Translations under genes and position numbers: made by a program
Source: Pseudomonas vranovensis DSM 16006
GTDB lineage: Bacteria; Pseudomonadota; Gammaproteobacteria; Pseudomonadales; Pseudomonadaceae
DNA: 64,000 nt
Reading direction: 5' to 3'
Assembly (NCBI RefSeq): GCF_000425805.1
Contig: NZ_AUED01000018.1
Location: 62,001 to 126,000 of the forward strand
Notes under the pieces: generated by a model
What the model saw: only the letters and a program-made list of their open reading frames with translations
Told to the model about the DNA's origin: nothing
Databases searched by the model: none
Shown here: one piece after another, positions 52,250 to 57,230 of the stretch
Layout: each line of letters starts with the position of its first letter
How positions within the stretch are numbered: position 1 is the stretch's first letter

Positions 52250-52337
52250 GGAAGCGTGGCCGAGTGGTTTAAGGCAACGGTCTTGAAAACCGTCGATGGG
52301 CAACTATCCTAGAGTTCGAATCTCTACGCTTCCGCCA
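52250..52337 (+). tRNA. tRNA-Ser (anticodon TGA)
   Basis: The acceptor arms GGAAGCG and CGCTTCC pair, and GCCA with encoded CCA follows. The D-arm region is TGGCCGAGTGGTTTAAGGCA. The anticodon stem-loop ACGGT-CTTGAAA-ACCGT carries TGA, reading UCA and related serine codons. The long variable arm (CGATGGGCAACTATCC) and T-loop GTTCGAATC are typical of serine tRNAs. Its 3' end is the likely integration site of the element that follows. Confidence 0.95.
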
Positions 52338-52448: not shown

Positions 52449-53509
52449 CTATTTGGTGGGTTTCGCCAGCGCTCCAACTCGGCGGTAAACCCGCTCCGTT
52501 ATGTCGCCCTTGGTATGACCCAGCAGCAGGCTGGCGTGATCGACATCCGTGATTTCCGAGGCTGCTTTCGGGCGGATGTCGCGGAATTGGAATTGGCTGA
52601 TGCGCCCTGCCAAGACCTGGTCGCCGGCGGAAACAGCCTCCTTCACCGCATCCTCCCGTACATCGTCCCAACGATGGCGAAGCATGGCCGTTGTGACCCG
52701 CTTGCCGGTGTCGGTCAGCAGCAGGTAAGGCGACCCGTGCGGCGCGTTGCGCTCAAGAATCTTCCTGATCACCACCCCCAAGCCACTTTCCACCCCTCTA
52801 CCTCAAGCAGAATCCTCAGCTTCTTGTGCGTCTTCTTCTGCTTAACACCGAGGGCCTTGTCCTCGATGTCGTCCTTTCTCATCACCAGCACGTCTGCCGG
52901 CCGCTGGCCCGTCAAATACGCCACATCCATGGCGTCCTTCAATTCACCCACTGCTTTCGCGTAAACCGCATTCCAGATCGTATCGTTCGCATAGAAGTCC
53001 CGAGGCACCTCCTTGTTCTTGCGCACGCCCTGGCAGGGGTTCTCTTTAGTCGTCAGACCCCATTCCCGCGCCATGTTGTAGACGTGGGACAGGAGCGCTA
53101 TCTCCCTATTCGCACGTACTGGAGCCGAACGAGCGTCCCGGTACTGAGCGACAAGCGATGGCGTGATGGCCTCTATGGGGGCCTTGTCGAAGACTGGGCG
53201 CAGATGACGGAGCTCCGCCAAGTTGTCCTTTTGCGTGCGGGCACCTTTCTTGGGGATTATGTCTCGCTCGTAGCGATCAAAGATCGCCTTCATCAGGAGC
53301 AAATCACGCGGCTTTTCCCTGGCCTCCAGCTCAGCCCATTTCATTCTGGCCAGGTTGAGGTCCGCGCCCAGAGGGATTTCTTTACCGTCCTTGTCGCGGT
53401 AGTAGTAGCTGATCCATGCCTTGTTCGGGTTCTTCTTGCTTTTGCTGGTGCGCTTGCGCCGGTACACGCCCGGCGGCAGATCCCTGTTTTCTTTGCTCCG
53501 AGGGCGCAT
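52449..53509 (-). pseudogene. Tyrosine integrase (lambda-Int type), broken by a frameshift
   Basis: The gene reads in two overlapping frames. The first part (52769-53509, 246 codons) has a lambda-Int-like arm-binding domain (ENRDLPPGVYRRKR, then YYYRDKDGKEIPLG), a SAM-like core-binding domain (about 95-180) and the first catalytic arginine in YLTGQRPADVLVM. It then runs into EGWKVAWGW and stops. The second part (52449-52793) continues with ESGLGVVIRKI and contains the second arginine box FQFRDIRPKAAS and LLGHTKGDITERVYRR, with the catalytic tyrosine. Adding one G to the GAGGGGTGG run at about 52793-52800 restores a single frame of about 353 codons. The gene ends facing the tRNA-Ser gene, as for elements that use the tRNA 3' end. 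A sequencing error in the G-run cannot be excluded. Confidence 0.85.
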
Positions 53510-53510
53510 A

Positions 53511-53756
53511 TCACCTCACCTTCGAAAAATCCGGCGTCCACGCCGGTACGGGTGGCGGGGGTAGCGGTGCCAGGGGCACCACCTCAATGGTGACGCCCAG
53601 TTTCATGCGGGCGTACTGGCGTCCTACCAGGGGGCGGCCGCCGCGGCTTTCAACGAAGTGCCAGCCACGATCGTTGAGCCAGCGGCGCTGCCAGCCCCTG
53701 GCCTTGTAACCGGTCAGGTCGGCCAGTTCTTCGTCCGAAAGGATCTCCGTTTCCAT
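53511..53756 (-). CDS. DUF4224 domain protein, probable excisionase-like factor
   Basis: 81 residues from the ATG at 53756 (METEILSDEELADLTGYKAR). The domain SDEELADLTGYKARGWQRRW followed by LNDRGWHFVESRGGRP matches DUF4224, a small winged-helix-like family found directly upstream of phage integrases in Pseudomonas and related genera. The tail (about 55-81) is proline-rich. It ends one base before the integrase start, so the two are one transcription unit. A directionality-factor role is inferred from position only. Confidence 0.75.
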   Translation of the reverse strand: METEILSDEELADLTGYKARGWQRRWLNDRGWHFVESRGGRPLVGRQYARMKLGVTIEVVPLAPLPPPPVPAWTPDFSKVR

Positions 53757-53851
53757 GGGGTGGTCTCCACGCCGCGCGTGGCGGCAGAGGTGGGGAGGAG
53801 TTAGGCGGCTTGTTTTGTCAGGGCGGCCAGCCGTTCGCTTATGCCCGGTCA

Positions 53852-53872
53852 TGAACGGTGAACGGTGAACGG
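53852..53872. repeat. Three tandem TGAACGG heptamers
   Basis: TGAACGG occurs three times without gaps, about 95 bases upstream of the DUF4224 start; an inverted partial copy (CCGTTCG) lies at 53831-53837. Such short iterated sites are typical of repressor or excisionase binding. Alternatively it is a simple slippage repeat. Confidence 0.6.
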
Positions 53873-53905
53873 CGCGGCCAGTGGTAGATGGTCTGCATCA
53901 GGCAC

Positions 53906-53935
53906 GAAAAACCCGGCCCCGTCCTTGGTTGGGGG
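53906..53935 (-). terminator. Possible terminator after the GNAT-Rnk gene
   Basis: On the minus strand CCCCCAACCAAGGACGGGG is followed by CCGGGTTTTTCG. The stem is short (4 bp, then a bulge and 2 more), so this is a weak call. Confidence 0.35.
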
Positions 53936-53976
53936 ATCTTCGCGCCTGATGGACGAACACTGAGTTAAAGGCGCAA

Positions 53977-54939
53977 TTACAGGTGGAAATCGCCCGCGGC
54001 CTCCGGCTGGTAAAGCACTTTCCTGATCCCAATCCGGCGTGTCCGGTCGGAAATTCGCCAATCGATGGCGTCCCCCTCCTGATATCCCAGGATAGCGGCG
54101 CCGATGTCGGAACATACGGAATACTTCCCGGCACTGTTGTCCGCGTCTTCAGGGTAGACCAGGGCCACTTCGATCTCTTCGTCGTCCAGCTGCAGCAATG
54201 CCCTGGAGTTCATCGTGACGACATTGCGCGCCACCTGTTGCGGCTTGACGACAATGGCTCGCTCAAGCTCATGTTCGAGTTCAACAACGGCCTGGCCTTG
54301 CTCGAGCGCGATCAGGCTCTCGAGCCTGGCCTTGTCGATTTCAGTGATGTAAATCTCAGTGGAGTCGCCAATGGCACCTTCGCGCAAGAAATGGAGATAG
54401 CGCCCCGCCGTCATGGAAAATGACTTCAATGTCGGGGTTTCGCTCTCAAGCAGAAAGCCGCTGCGCAGAAAGGCTTTCAGCGAGCGCGCGTTGTCCGGGT
54501 GAATCTTGGCGATGAGCTTCTCGGCCCGCATGTCGAGGAAAGCCAGTTTCATGCCTTCGCGGATCGTGCGGGCGCCAAGGTTTCGGCCCCATTTGTCGCT
54601 GTCTCCGATGACCAGGACTATCTCGCAATTGGAGCCGGTCTTGATGAGGCGGACAAAGCCCACCGGGGCGTCATGCCGGTCATAGGCCATGAAGAATCGG
54701 CCGCCCCGGTTGAATAGATGAGTCAGGATCGGCAATTGAGTCCGATCGATGACTTGCTCGATGGAGCGGGAGACATGACGCGAATCGCTCAGATAGCAGG
54801 TGACGCGCTCATCTTCCAACCAATCCATCAGCGTCAGTGCGTGTGCCCGAGTAATCTCAGGGCACAGCGAAATGAAAGGCTTGTTCATCTTCACCACAGT
54901 CATTTGTAAAGGATGAAAGCCCTTCATGGCTATGGCCAT
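53977..54939 (-). CDS. GNAT acetyltransferase fused to Rnk-type nucleoside diphosphate kinase regulator
   Basis: Up to 320 residues; the start is uncertain, with ATGs at 54939, 54927, 54903 and 54888 (the last gives MNKPFISLCPEITRAHALTL). The N-terminal half (to about residue 195) is a GNAT fold: RFFMAYDRHDAPVGFVRLIK, DSDKWGRNLGARTIREGMKL (acetyl-CoA loop) and HPDNARSLKAFLRSGFLLES. The C-terminal half (about 195-320) is a Rnk/GreA-C domain: EIYITEIDKARLESLIALEQ, then QQVARNVVTMNSRALLQLDD and CSDIGAAILGYQEGDAIDWR. Rnk binds RNA polymerase near the secondary channel. The fusion implies acetylation coupled to a transcription-related protein, but the substrate is unknown. It lies between the integrase module and a divergent exported protein. 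Confidence 0.85.
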   Translation of the reverse strand: MAIAMKGFHPLQMTVVKMNKPFISLCPEITRAHALTLMDWLEDERVTCYLSDSRHVSRSIEQVIDRTQLPILTHLFNRGGRFFMAYDRHDAPVGFVRLIKTGSNCEIVLVIGDSDKWGRNLGARTIREGMKLAFLDMRAEKLIAKIHPDNARSLKAFLRSGFLLESETPTLKSFSMTAGRYLHFLREGAIGDSTEIYITEIDKARLESLIALEQGQAVVELEHELERAIVVKPQQVARNVVTMNSRALLQLDDEEIEVALVYPEDADNSAGKYSVCSDIGAAILGYQEGDAIDWRISDRTRRIGIRKVLYQPEAAGDFHL

Positions 54940-55175
54940 GACGGTTCTTTCGGCAACCGGCCATAGTAAGACAAAACGTGAGTGATGCCGAACAGGTTGC
55001 GTACCTTTCCTCCAGGTAGCATTGCTAATGGGCTGTGCGCAAAAGCTGACGTTGCAAGCACGTATTGATCAGTTCGCCACTGGGGGAAAATGTATCGCTC
55101 TGCGTTGATGGCATCTGGCCATCCGGCGGGGTATTCTCCTTCCTTAACGTTCATCGCAACAATTAAGGACATTGC
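54940..55175. promoter_or_regulatory. Divergent promoter region between the GNAT-Rnk gene and the exported-protein gene
   Basis: 236 bases without a convincing gene. A minus-strand open frame crosses it but has no ribosome-binding site or family resemblance. AAGGA seven bases before 55176 supports the plus-strand start. Confidence 0.45.
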
Positions 55176-56147
55176 ATGCGCAAGCTGTTTCAAGTCTGGC
55201 TCGGTCTCACCCTCATATCGATGGTCTTTTATCTCCCATTCTACGTGTTCTCCAACAATGCTCTGGATGCCGTTGAAGAAGTCACGCCCGATGATCTCAT
55301 TCCTCTCACGGGCACTCGTCTGGAGGACCCGGAGCGTAAGCACAACCTGTTGGTCGCCACGGGAATAGACACGTCCATGACGCTTGAGGATGCCTTGGAG
55401 GACAACAAAAGTTTGTCCAACGTGAGTATCCAGTACGCGAAAGGTGCCGAGGTTCAGCAGGCGGAGATGGCCAGCGGGTTCAAAATCGTCGAGGCCACGG
55501 CGGACATCGGCAATGACCGGCAGATGCAGATCATGTTCACGGTCATGCCGAAGCGGTTTCTGAAGAGTAATGCGATGGTGAACGGGTTTCTGGGCATCAA
55601 GATCACTGACGGCAAACATTCCTTCGACATGATCGATGGCGTTGATGACGAACTGTACCTTTGGGCGCTGTTCGATAAATCCGGTAAGCATGCGCCTGAG
55701 TCGATCAAGCGCATGAGCCGTCAGTTTGATGTTCTCGTCGGTCGGACCCTCGAGCATGAACAGGCGCGAGCGCGTGACCTAAACCCACCAGCAGTTATGT
55801 CACAGCCGGCTCAATCGCAGTCTGCGGTCGAGTACTTCGAGGACCCCCTGAGCAACACTGGAGCGGGATCACCAGCCACGACTCAAGCGTCGCCCGCGGC
55901 AGAGGCTGGCAGCCGCACCCGAGCAGGCAACCCAGGCACTGGCAAGATCATTATTTTCCAGTTTGAAGGGCAGCCAGCGTACTGTGCCGACGAGGGGGAA
56001 GACGGTGTCAATTGCCGCGGAGACAGTTCGGCGTTTATCGGGTCGGGAAGCTATCAGGATTTCATGGATCCGGGCAGCGCAATCTGCATTGCCGGCGAAC
56101 CGGATTGCAAGCTGCCGGATTACTTCCCGGCAGATGTTCGCGGGTAG
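55176..56147 (+). CDS. Unrecognised exported or membrane-anchored protein with a cysteine-containing tail
   Basis: 323 residues; the ATG at 55176 has AAGGA seven bases upstream. I do not recognise the family. A short basic N-terminus and a single hydrophobic stretch (about residues 6-27, VWLGLTLISMVFYLPFYVFS) form a signal peptide or anchor. Residues 35-205 look like a folded domain, with GFKIVEATADIGNDRQMQIM and FLGIKITDGKHSFDMIDGVD. A linker rich in Ala, Ser, Gln, Pro and Thr (about 205-255) separates it from a C-terminal piece with four cysteines (CADEGEDGVNCRGDS and CIAGEPDCKLP) that could form two disulfides in the periplasm. It is divergent from the GNAT-Rnk gene and ends in a clear terminator, so it is expressed alone. 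Confidence 0.75.
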   Translation: MRKLFQVWLGLTLISMVFYLPFYVFSNNALDAVEEVTPDDLIPLTGTRLEDPERKHNLLVATGIDTSMTLEDALEDNKSLSNVSIQYAKGAEVQQAEMASGFKIVEATADIGNDRQMQIMFTVMPKRFLKSNAMVNGFLGIKITDGKHSFDMIDGVDDELYLWALFDKSGKHAPESIKRMSRQFDVLVGRTLEHEQARARDLNPPAVMSQPAQSQSAVEYFEDPLSNTGAGSPATTQASPAAEAGSRTRAGNPGTGKIIIFQFEGQPAYCADEGEDGVNCRGDSSAFIGSGSYQDFMDPGSAICIAGEPDCKLPDYFPADVRG

Positions 56148-56342: not shown

Positions 56343-56927
56343 TCATGCAACTGTCCATGACTTCAGAATATTTTCTTTAAGCTGCAGATAAACAAGTGAA
56401 GTACTCCCAGCCCAGATGGGGCCGCGGAAGTCTTGGTGAAGAAATGAGGATTTAGCAAATTGGGTCAGCCATTTTGGATTCAACTTCCCCTTGTGCGACC
56501 TGGGTAGATCACCTGCATTGACCATCCTGTTCGGATTGCCTGTGACTTTTGGATAAAATCCCATTTTTATATAGAAGCCTTCACTCCCGGGAAGAGGCGA
56601 AAGCAACGTAGTCTGTACATTTTGCTCATGGCCGAATTTCATGGCTGCATAAACTAAAAGCTGGCCTAGCCCAACATGGGGATTTGGCTTCTTTATAGTC
56701 GGATTATTTTCATTGCCCTCGACGTAAATGGCGGAGATCATCAGGTAATCACGACCCTCCGGCTCCCTGTAAATAGAGCAGCGACCATACGCCAATTCCT
56801 CGTGCCTGGGCGTAATCAGTGAAAGGTTCACTGCGTGTTGTTCATCTTCAGAGGGAAGTGTTATGTCCTCGTCCACTATCAGTGTCAAGGGATTATCGCG
56901 CTGTGGGTTTATTTCAATGAAACGCAT
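56343..56927 (-). CDS. GNAT-like protein, AT-richer than its neighbours
   Basis: 194 residues from the ATG at 56927 (MRFIEINPQRDNPLTLIVDE). The middle reads as a GNAT core: YLMISAIYVEGNENNP, then HVGLGQLLVYAAMKFGHEQN (a V-G-L-G-Q acetyl-CoA loop) and PGSEGFYIKMGFYPKVTGNP (the closing strand with FYIKMGF). The C-terminal 60 residues (HKGKLNPKWLTQFAKSSFLH onward) match nothing I know. Base composition is visibly lower in GC than the core genome, with AAA, ATT and TTT codons common, which points to horizontal transfer. Function and substrate are unknown. It is convergent with the exported-protein gene. Confidence 0.7.
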   Translation of the reverse strand: MRFIEINPQRDNPLTLIVDEDITLPSEDEQHAVNLSLITPRHEELAYGRCSIYREPEGRDYLMISAIYVEGNENNPTIKKPNPHVGLGQLLVYAAMKFGHEQNVQTTLLSPLPGSEGFYIKMGFYPKVTGNPNRMVNAGDLPRSHKGKLNPKWLTQFAKSSFLHQDFRGPIWAGSTSLVYLQLKENILKSWTVA

Positions 56928-57230
56928 GGCAGCACCATTATGATCGGATGTATGGGGTCAGGAAATTCACGCCAGACGTCCGTTGTCAGCAGTGTGAGCC
57001 GATAGTTGAAATCTTGATATTTAGAGGGCTTGGCATTCGTGTAAAGAATACGGCTGCAGCTACCTAACACGTCGGCAACGTACCCACTTTGGGTGAGGGT
57101 TACAAATAAGCAATTAATACATCTCTTTGCAAATCAGAAGCCTATAAGCGTCGGCGTAATACTGGCGTTGCGCCATTCCGTAACGTAGCAAGGTGAAACT
57201 GCCCGCCAATCGGCGGGCAGCGGGCAGGCC
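56928..57230. other. Intergenic region between the GNAT-like gene and glcA
   Basis: 303 bases without a gene. It is AT-rich at 57090-57150 and should hold the GNAT-like promoter (upstream of 56927). The right end has the glcA terminator. It probably contains the far boundary of the tRNA-Ser element, but no copy of the tRNA 3' end is seen. Confidence 0.5.
57199..57220 (-). terminator. Probable terminator of the glc operon
   Basis: Perfect 9-bp stem CTGCCCGCC / GGCGGGCAG with an AATC loop; only three T's follow on the minus strand (TTTCACC). It begins 10 bases after the glcA stop. Confidence 0.6.

Follow-up and report, generated by a model that had tools for sequence, protein, structure and literature searches.

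This study provides evidence that the GNAT-Rnk fusion gene of Pseudomonas vranovensis DSM 16006 appears, on sequence comparison, to be a self-contained transcription unit that has spread horizontally among bacterial genomes. The gene lies on the minus strand of the window, namely the whole stretch of 64,000 nucleotides that was analysed, and the unit would consist of a promoter-like stretch, a leader that folds as RNA, and a single gene, followed in some family members by a 3′ hairpin. As a tentative but plausible interpretation, we propose that it encodes a leader-controlled GNAT acetyltransferase of the resistance or immunity type, docked on RNA polymerase (RNAP) by its Rnk half.

Domain architecture and integrity of the fusion protein

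The frame at 53977-54939 (minus strand) is open over 320 codons, and the fusion protein counted from the probable start codon comprises 303 residues (53977..54888, minus strand). An earlier note on this DNA had read it as a GNAT domain followed by a complete Rnk/GreA-C domain in one chain, and this was borne out by Pfam matches above the curated cut-offs: Acetyltransf_3, a GNAT superfamily domain, at residues 29-162 of the 320-residue frame (54454..54855, minus strand; E 1.7e-11, 45.4 bits against a cut-off of 25.4), Rnk_N at residues 195-231 (E 4.9e-8, 33.7 bits against 23.7), and the GreA_GreB C-terminal domain at residues 239-309 (E 1.3e-11, 44.7 bits against 26.9), the last two forming an Rnk-like module at 54013..54357 on the same strand.

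Rnk is the regulator of nucleoside diphosphate kinase. The module shares both of its domains with the Rnk proteins of E. coli (3bmb) and N. europaea (2pn0), which were the PDB sequence matches of the C-terminal half, at about 32-39% identity in structure alignments, but it differs from them in being fused behind a GNAT domain and, in the sequence alignment, in lacking a few residues near the coil. In addition, the NCBIfam Rnk equivalog PRK05753 matched residues 194-319 (E 5.6e-29) at 100.7 bits, below its cut-off of 109, and a separate, stand-alone Rnk match with 41% identity was found in the same genome. On these comparisons the C-terminal half appears to be an Rnk-like domain and is not classed as an Rnk ortholog. 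As regards the Gre cleavage factors, which carry a long N-terminal coiled coil with acidic tip residues, the fusion aligns to the Rnk-type short form of 2pn0 and 3bmb and scored 49 bits with the NCBIfam greA models, far below the cut-off of 139.

The PDB sequence matches of the N-terminal half were weak and of the SpeG/AAC(6′) type, that to SpeG being obtained with the fusion profile, and the related enzyme PA3944 was matched only from the query of a GNAT-only relative described below (L148; E 1.3e-4). In the AlphaFold model of the fusion, which is of moderate confidence (pLDDT 63.6), the best structural matches of the GNAT half were SpeG (Z 13.6 and 17% identity, with an rmsd of 3.8 over 144 residues) and AAC(6′)-Ib (Z 12.9), and the Rnk structure 3bmb reached Z 12.2; the lasso-peptide acetyltransferase 9iy3 was also among the fold matches (Z 11.7, 35th among the 50 matches shown). 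The GNAT fold is thus shared with the SpeG/AAC(6′)/PA3944 type, but the identity to SpeG and AAC(6′)-Ib by structure is only 15-17%, and the fusion scored at most 18.2 bits with the NCBIfam AAC(6′) models, whose cut-offs are at least 260, which places it outside the AAC(6′) families.

Homologues in which the two domains are separate proteins were looked for and not found, since all 116 fusion loci, read from residue 18, carry both domains in one unbroken chain of 302-305 residues, and 110 of them have exactly 303; these loci represent 100 distinct gene sequences, so that duplicates are included and not all are independent. A copy on a viral contig (L156), outside the 116, has a frameshift inside the GNAT N-terminus. 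Among 600 pairs drawn at random, 552-591 of them usable, the linker had a median dN/dS of 0.319 and the GNAT and Rnk halves had medians of 0.124 and 0.111, indicating that both halves have been kept.

Boundaries of the unit and its genomic neighbourhoods

Comparison with 80 loci showed that, for most, DNA homology to the window does not extend beyond the transcription unit. At the 5′ side the homology ends at a median of 54994 (quartiles 54992 and 54995), which delimits a conserved promoter-like stretch (54952..54995, minus strand); no match to the sigma-70 consensus was found within it. At the 3′ side, an inverted repeat of 19 nt forms a hairpin after the stop codon (53896..53951, minus strand) and marks the homology end in part of the family, the homology extending past 53930 towards the repeat in 29 of the 80 loci. 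This hairpin is strong and was not called as a terminator. Four loci (L004, L030, L096, and L110) additionally share chromosomal sequence with the window on one side, and in three others (L003, L005, and L083) the homology continues to about 55075.

When loci sharing more than 400 aligned bases were clustered by their flanks, the 80 loci gave 47 clusters on the upstream and 55 on the downstream side, with up to 11 and 14 loci each; distantly homologous flanks are counted apart by this procedure, and the downstream flank of L082 was too short for comparison. The nearest ORFs of at least 90 residues on each side, called mechanically, were scanned in 55 of the 80 loci, picked so as to represent the flank clusters, covering 107 of 108 neighbours (the 1818-residue ORF of L073 was left out). 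The commonest domains were those of glmS (4 of 107), and integrase and transposase families were not among the families common to at least two of the 107 ORFs; all families with two or more members are among the 25 of 87 shown, so that single integrases could hide in the remainder.

In the Pseudomonas loci L007, L027, and L050, the nearest downstream ORF has 611 residues. This ORF is presumably glmS, which may link these insertions to the Tn7 attachment region. In the window itself, two ORFs at 56343-56927 (minus strand, 194 residues) and 55176-56147 (plus strand, 323 residues) had no Pfam match, and the DNA around the former (56355-56993) also occurs near the fusion in L004 with 74% identity.

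A conserved leader hairpin

A conserved element precedes the gene, with its hairpin at 54915..54951 (minus strand; GAAAG-AA-CC-G-UCAUGGC-CAUA-GCCAUGA-A-GG-G-CUUUC) ending 26 nt before the start codon. The hairpin of the window has a predicted energy of -18.6 kcal/mol for 47 nt, which none of 200 shuffles equalled in stability, and the same fold outline was obtained for 11 of 13 leaders folded singly, L117 and L018 taking another fold. The distance from the hairpin end to the start codon, as counted by regular expression, was 26 nt in 83 of 116 rows and 23-32 nt in 31, the values of 61 and 67 in two further rows being taken as artefacts of the expression. The conserved leader is probably a folded RNA.

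A leader alignment (A1) and a covariance model (R1) were built from 39 and 37 of the 116 leaders, respectively, after redundancy filtering. With the stricter filters of Infernal and E <= 0.01, R1 matched 42 of 298 Pseudomonas genomes, and a set check confirmed that this set coincides with the 42 fusion carriers, with one match each, at the gene. R1 had no match in the 256 genomes without the fusion, 234 of which did match the fusion query, nearly all to the Rnk part where the matches were listed. Likewise, the six strong R1 matches in a phylum sample of 398 genomes were the six GNAT carriers. Nine weaker matches in phylum genomes (E 0.01-0.08) were read as chance over 398 genomes, and a tblastn search with the fusion against six of these nine (loci L260-L265) gave no match. 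Among divergent Burkholderiales loci, L115-L117 and L151-L153 have the leader, and the divergent carrier L154 has no recognisable one.

No described Rfam family was found for the leader in the window and four further loci. The four Rfam matches in window positions 53700-55300 had E values of 1.6-6.4, all far below the gathering scores, one of them being MIR169, which overlies the leader on the other strand, and no leader match reached a gathering score in L148, L153, L115, or L014. An integron attC reading of the hairpin was dropped, as it is located within the unit, downstream of the promoter region; no attC core-site consensus was seen in it by eye.

A GNAT-only relative with the same leader

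The same leader was found before a GNAT gene lacking the Rnk module on the gut contig MT836484.1 (L148), which is filed as phage. The encoded GNAT has 176 residues and is 34% identical over 162 residues to that of the fusion. Its leader core reads AAAAGAACCGUC GAUGCACUGCGCAUA GAAGGGCUUUU and contains AAAGAACCGTC and GAAGGGCTTT exactly, and the distance of 26 nt between core and ATG is the same as in the window. The two arms of the outer core agree with it over 11 and 10 nt, whereas A-U stands in place of G-C as the outermost pair and the inner stem differs in sequence but is still complementary. The R1 match to this leader had an E value of 1.7e-4 with the contig on its own and 0.0049 over 110 kb, values of rough calibration, and a second, weaker match on the contig (13.9 bits) was taken as background. 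The L148 hairpin is not unusually stable, since 11 of 200 shuffles of 46 nt and 58 of 200 shuffles of 80 nt were equally stable.

This one contig, on which the conclusion rests, suggests that the leader goes with the GNAT and not with the Rnk module, as it stands before a GNAT-only gene; a search of IMG/VR gave no further case of this leader with a GNAT-only gene. The host of L148 is probably a Firmicute, because the best plasmid relative of the serine recombinase encoded upstream of the GNAT gene comes from Subdoligranulum (51%). Group II intron pieces (Rfam) were also observed at L148:2382-2683, overlapping and following the end of the recombinase ORF.

Does the leader act as RNA or as DNA?

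We favour the view that the leader acts as RNA, which would set expression after transcription has started. No covariation of the hairpin was detected in the free alignment. In the model-fitted alignment, both partners had changed in 13 cells, spread over three pairs, compared with 4.6 cells in shuffles (0 of 500); this alignment leans toward the model, includes the reverse-strand row L010, and lacks L148. In that fitted alignment, a partner slide of +3 scored higher on covariation than the proposed pairing (0.114 against 0.067).

The conserved block might instead work as DNA, namely as the operator dyad of a repressor, which we consider possible but rather unlikely. The block is near-palindromic, the RNA model scores on the opposite strand too, and its sequence is conserved beyond what pairing requires, with scant covariation in the free alignment, all of which would suit an operator. 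What argues against it is that the spacing between the hairpin arms varies by -6, -1, +3, and +6 nt, shifts that would rotate the half-sites of a dyad relative to each other, and that asymmetric internal mismatches are conserved. In addition, the inner stem of L148 is replaced by a different one, and one row of the fitted alignment has C-G in place of a U-A pair, as read in L153. An RNA hairpin therefore remains the reading that we favour for the leader.

Structured leaders before genes of this kind have been described, as a passage of PMC2965389 reports attenuators upstream of rnk and greA. The present leader resembles the rnk- and greA-leaders, as described there, in being a structured leader before a gene with an Rnk-type domain, but it differs from them in following the GNAT, without Rnk in L148, in lacking an Rfam match at gathering score in the four loci named above, and in that R1 is silent in the 256 fusion-free genomes.

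Distribution and phylogeny

The full fusion is carried by 42 of 298 Pseudomonas genomes, with 81-100% identity and no internal stops, and each of these carriers shows one or more additional matches, consistent with a resident Rnk. Carriage was likewise patchy in the wider samples: the GNAT half as query found 6 of 398 genomes in the phylum sample, where the three carriers outside Pseudomonas also have read-through fusions of 302-303 residues, and matches were obtained in 2 of 349 genomes of an order-level sample around one Burkholderiales carrier and in 6 of 150 genomes of the family of that carrier. The best 80 of 149 related stretches in named genomes belong mostly to Pseudomonas and Achromobacter, and also to Pigmentiphaga and Bordetella petrii.

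In a tree of 86 copies, all Pseudomonas copies and two copies from metagenome-assembled genomes (MAGs) form one clade (support 100/97), which is joined with two Achromobacter copies at 100/99 among other Burkholderiales copies under midpoint rooting. This nesting of the Pseudomonas copies among Achromobacter copies suggests that the gene moved from Burkholderiales to Pseudomonas, provided that the midpoint root is correct. The two MAG copies, L075 (labelled as a cyanobacterium) and L062 (an alphaproteobacterium), fall among the Pseudomonas copies and are suspected to be contamination. The base composition gives no clear foreign signature, as the GC content of the gene (0.54-0.63) overlaps that of the flanks (0.50-0.70) and its GC3 correlates with the flank at 0.53. 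Fragments of the Rnk part of the fusion were also observed in two genomes (G063:C27:131824-132048 and G113:C1:2748146-2748331), and are probably remnants of lost copies.

Possible function of the fusion

According to a passage in PMC4598747, E. coli Rnk binds RNAP in competition with Gre and DksA, and the same 2015 review describes its role as unknown. In the literature searched, no paper on a GNAT-Rnk fusion was found, and the Rnk passage in PMC8120321 concerns the stand-alone gene. In our tentative interpretation of a docked resistance or immunity enzyme, the GNAT half would acetylate an amine, most probably one carried by a toxic peptide or small molecule, a substrate suggested by the gene behaving like a roaming resistance or immunity gene; the Rnk half would dock the enzyme on RNAP, as E. 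coli Rnk does, and the docked enzyme may work near the secondary channel or be concentrated there. A remote relative, PA3944, acetylates polymyxin B, according to PMC8072286.

Some findings count against this interpretation. The GNAT half was not found on any of 72,556 plasmid records, which is unusual for a resistance gene of the clinical type; 137 plasmids matched the fusion, none over 80% of the protein and none with the GNAT alone. Further, the GNAT fold is generic, with only 15-17% identity to its best structural matches in a model of moderate confidence. The GNAT relative with the same leader and without Rnk, found on the single contig L148, also suggests that a role at RNAP would not be essential to the enzyme and that a target at RNAP would not be the whole story. 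If the Rnk half does dock on RNAP, the enzyme would be aimed at the secondary channel, which would give a first clue as to why the Rnk fold is kept; and if the leader is a sensor, it would offer a direct handle on the signal and substrate of a frequently transferred acetyltransferase.

An alternative, which follows the reading of the earlier note and which we regard as less likely, is that the fusion is a transcription regulator whose GNAT half acetylates RNAP or an associated factor, or senses acetyl-CoA, and whose Rnk half brings the GNAT there. The Rnk-like module is complete, both halves are under similar purifying selection, and the RNAP binding of E. coli Rnk (PMC4598747) would fit such a role. 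Unlike a fixed regulator, however, the gene is patchy and horizontally acquired, all 42 carriers have the further match that is expected of a resident Rnk, and the GNAT relative with the same leader occurs without Rnk.

A more far-reaching version of the docked-enzyme reading is speculative and appears quite unlikely, namely that the leader represents a novel type of RNA sensing drugs or metabolites, or an antibiotic-responsive attenuator, that travels with the GNAT across phyla, and that in Proteobacteria the Rnk-tethered GNAT destroys secondary-channel inhibitors, for example of the lasso-peptide type, at their target. A passage of PMC7680869 describes the lasso peptides microcin J25 and capistruin as binding the RNAP secondary channel, and capistruin as active against Burkholderia and Pseudomonas; this literature and the fold match to 9iy3 are only suggestive.

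Mobility and the neighbouring integrase

The earlier note had asked whether the fusion is cargo of the adjacent integrase. The mobility of the gene itself is supported by its 47 upstream and 55 downstream contexts and its patchy carriage, but the adjacent integrase is probably not the mover. A tyrosine integrase remnant (52449..53509, minus strand), split by a frameshift into the overlapping ORFs 52769-53509 and 52449-52793, and an excisionase-like gene (53511..53852, minus strand; DUF4224, PHROG excisionase) adjoin the fusion together with a tRNA-Ser(tga) gene (52250..52337, plus strand), the presumed old attachment site of the integrase. That the fusion is cargo of such an element at tRNA-Ser would fit this arrangement and the tRNA genes near some relatives (within 300 nt in L030 and L046 and within about 1 kb in L062), but it is very unlikely, because the integrase is frameshifted, no second copy of the tRNA-Ser end was found within the window at up to three mismatches, tRNAs occur in only 5 of the 60 loci scanned out of 80, three of these within about 1 kb of the gene, and integrase families are not common to two or more of the nearest neighbours. 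Neither an intact integrase nor flanking attachment repeats, as expected of cargo, were found in the window. The integrase and the excisionase-like gene are therefore judged to be probably incidental. The integrase frameshift may reflect natural decay or a sequencing error.

Among 50,697 phage records, no full-length match to the fusion was found, and there was one GNAT-only match. Protein searches of IMG/VR gave one copy in all, L156, a phage-like contig of 12,145 nt with the leader and the broken fusion at one end and a tyrosine integrase towards the other. A looser leader pattern returned 96 stretches from IMG/VR, among which L156 alone gave a good R1 score, nine more listed R1 matches having E values of 0.079-0.92; a stricter pattern returned L157 besides L156, and this hit lies inside a coding ORF and was taken as chance. 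A PADLOC search of the fusion and three of its neighbours was negative.

Start codon of the fusion

The 320-codon frame from 54939 had been given as the gene by the earlier note. Its openness was upheld, but the start codon is more likely residue 18 at window position 54888, because in 31 of the 106 judged loci the two possible starts are separated by a stop or lie in different frames. The upstream ATG is open and in frame to the start codon in 75 of the 116 fusion loci, is followed by a stop before residue 18 in four (L048, L050, L066, and L077), and lies in another frame in 27; in the other 10 loci, which were not judged, the upstream ATG was missed by the search pattern. The stretch at 54889..54939 (minus strand), earlier read as residues 1-17, is thus more likely an untranslated leader, the extra 51 nt upstream of 54888 being probably part of the 5′ leader.

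A translated upstream frame (leader peptide ATGGCCATAGCCATGAAG...) is unlikely since neither the frame nor the ATG is kept, and this reading together with that of a plain N-terminus of the protein is scarcely probable. In favour of these readings, the window has the ATG in the frame of the gene, and this frame is open in the 75 loci named above; against them, that frame is lost or stopped in 31 of the 106, the ATG is absent from L114 and L117, the peptide differs in L148 and L115, and the wobble positions, judged by eye, are conserved no less than the others. Residue 18 is preceded by GGTGAAG.
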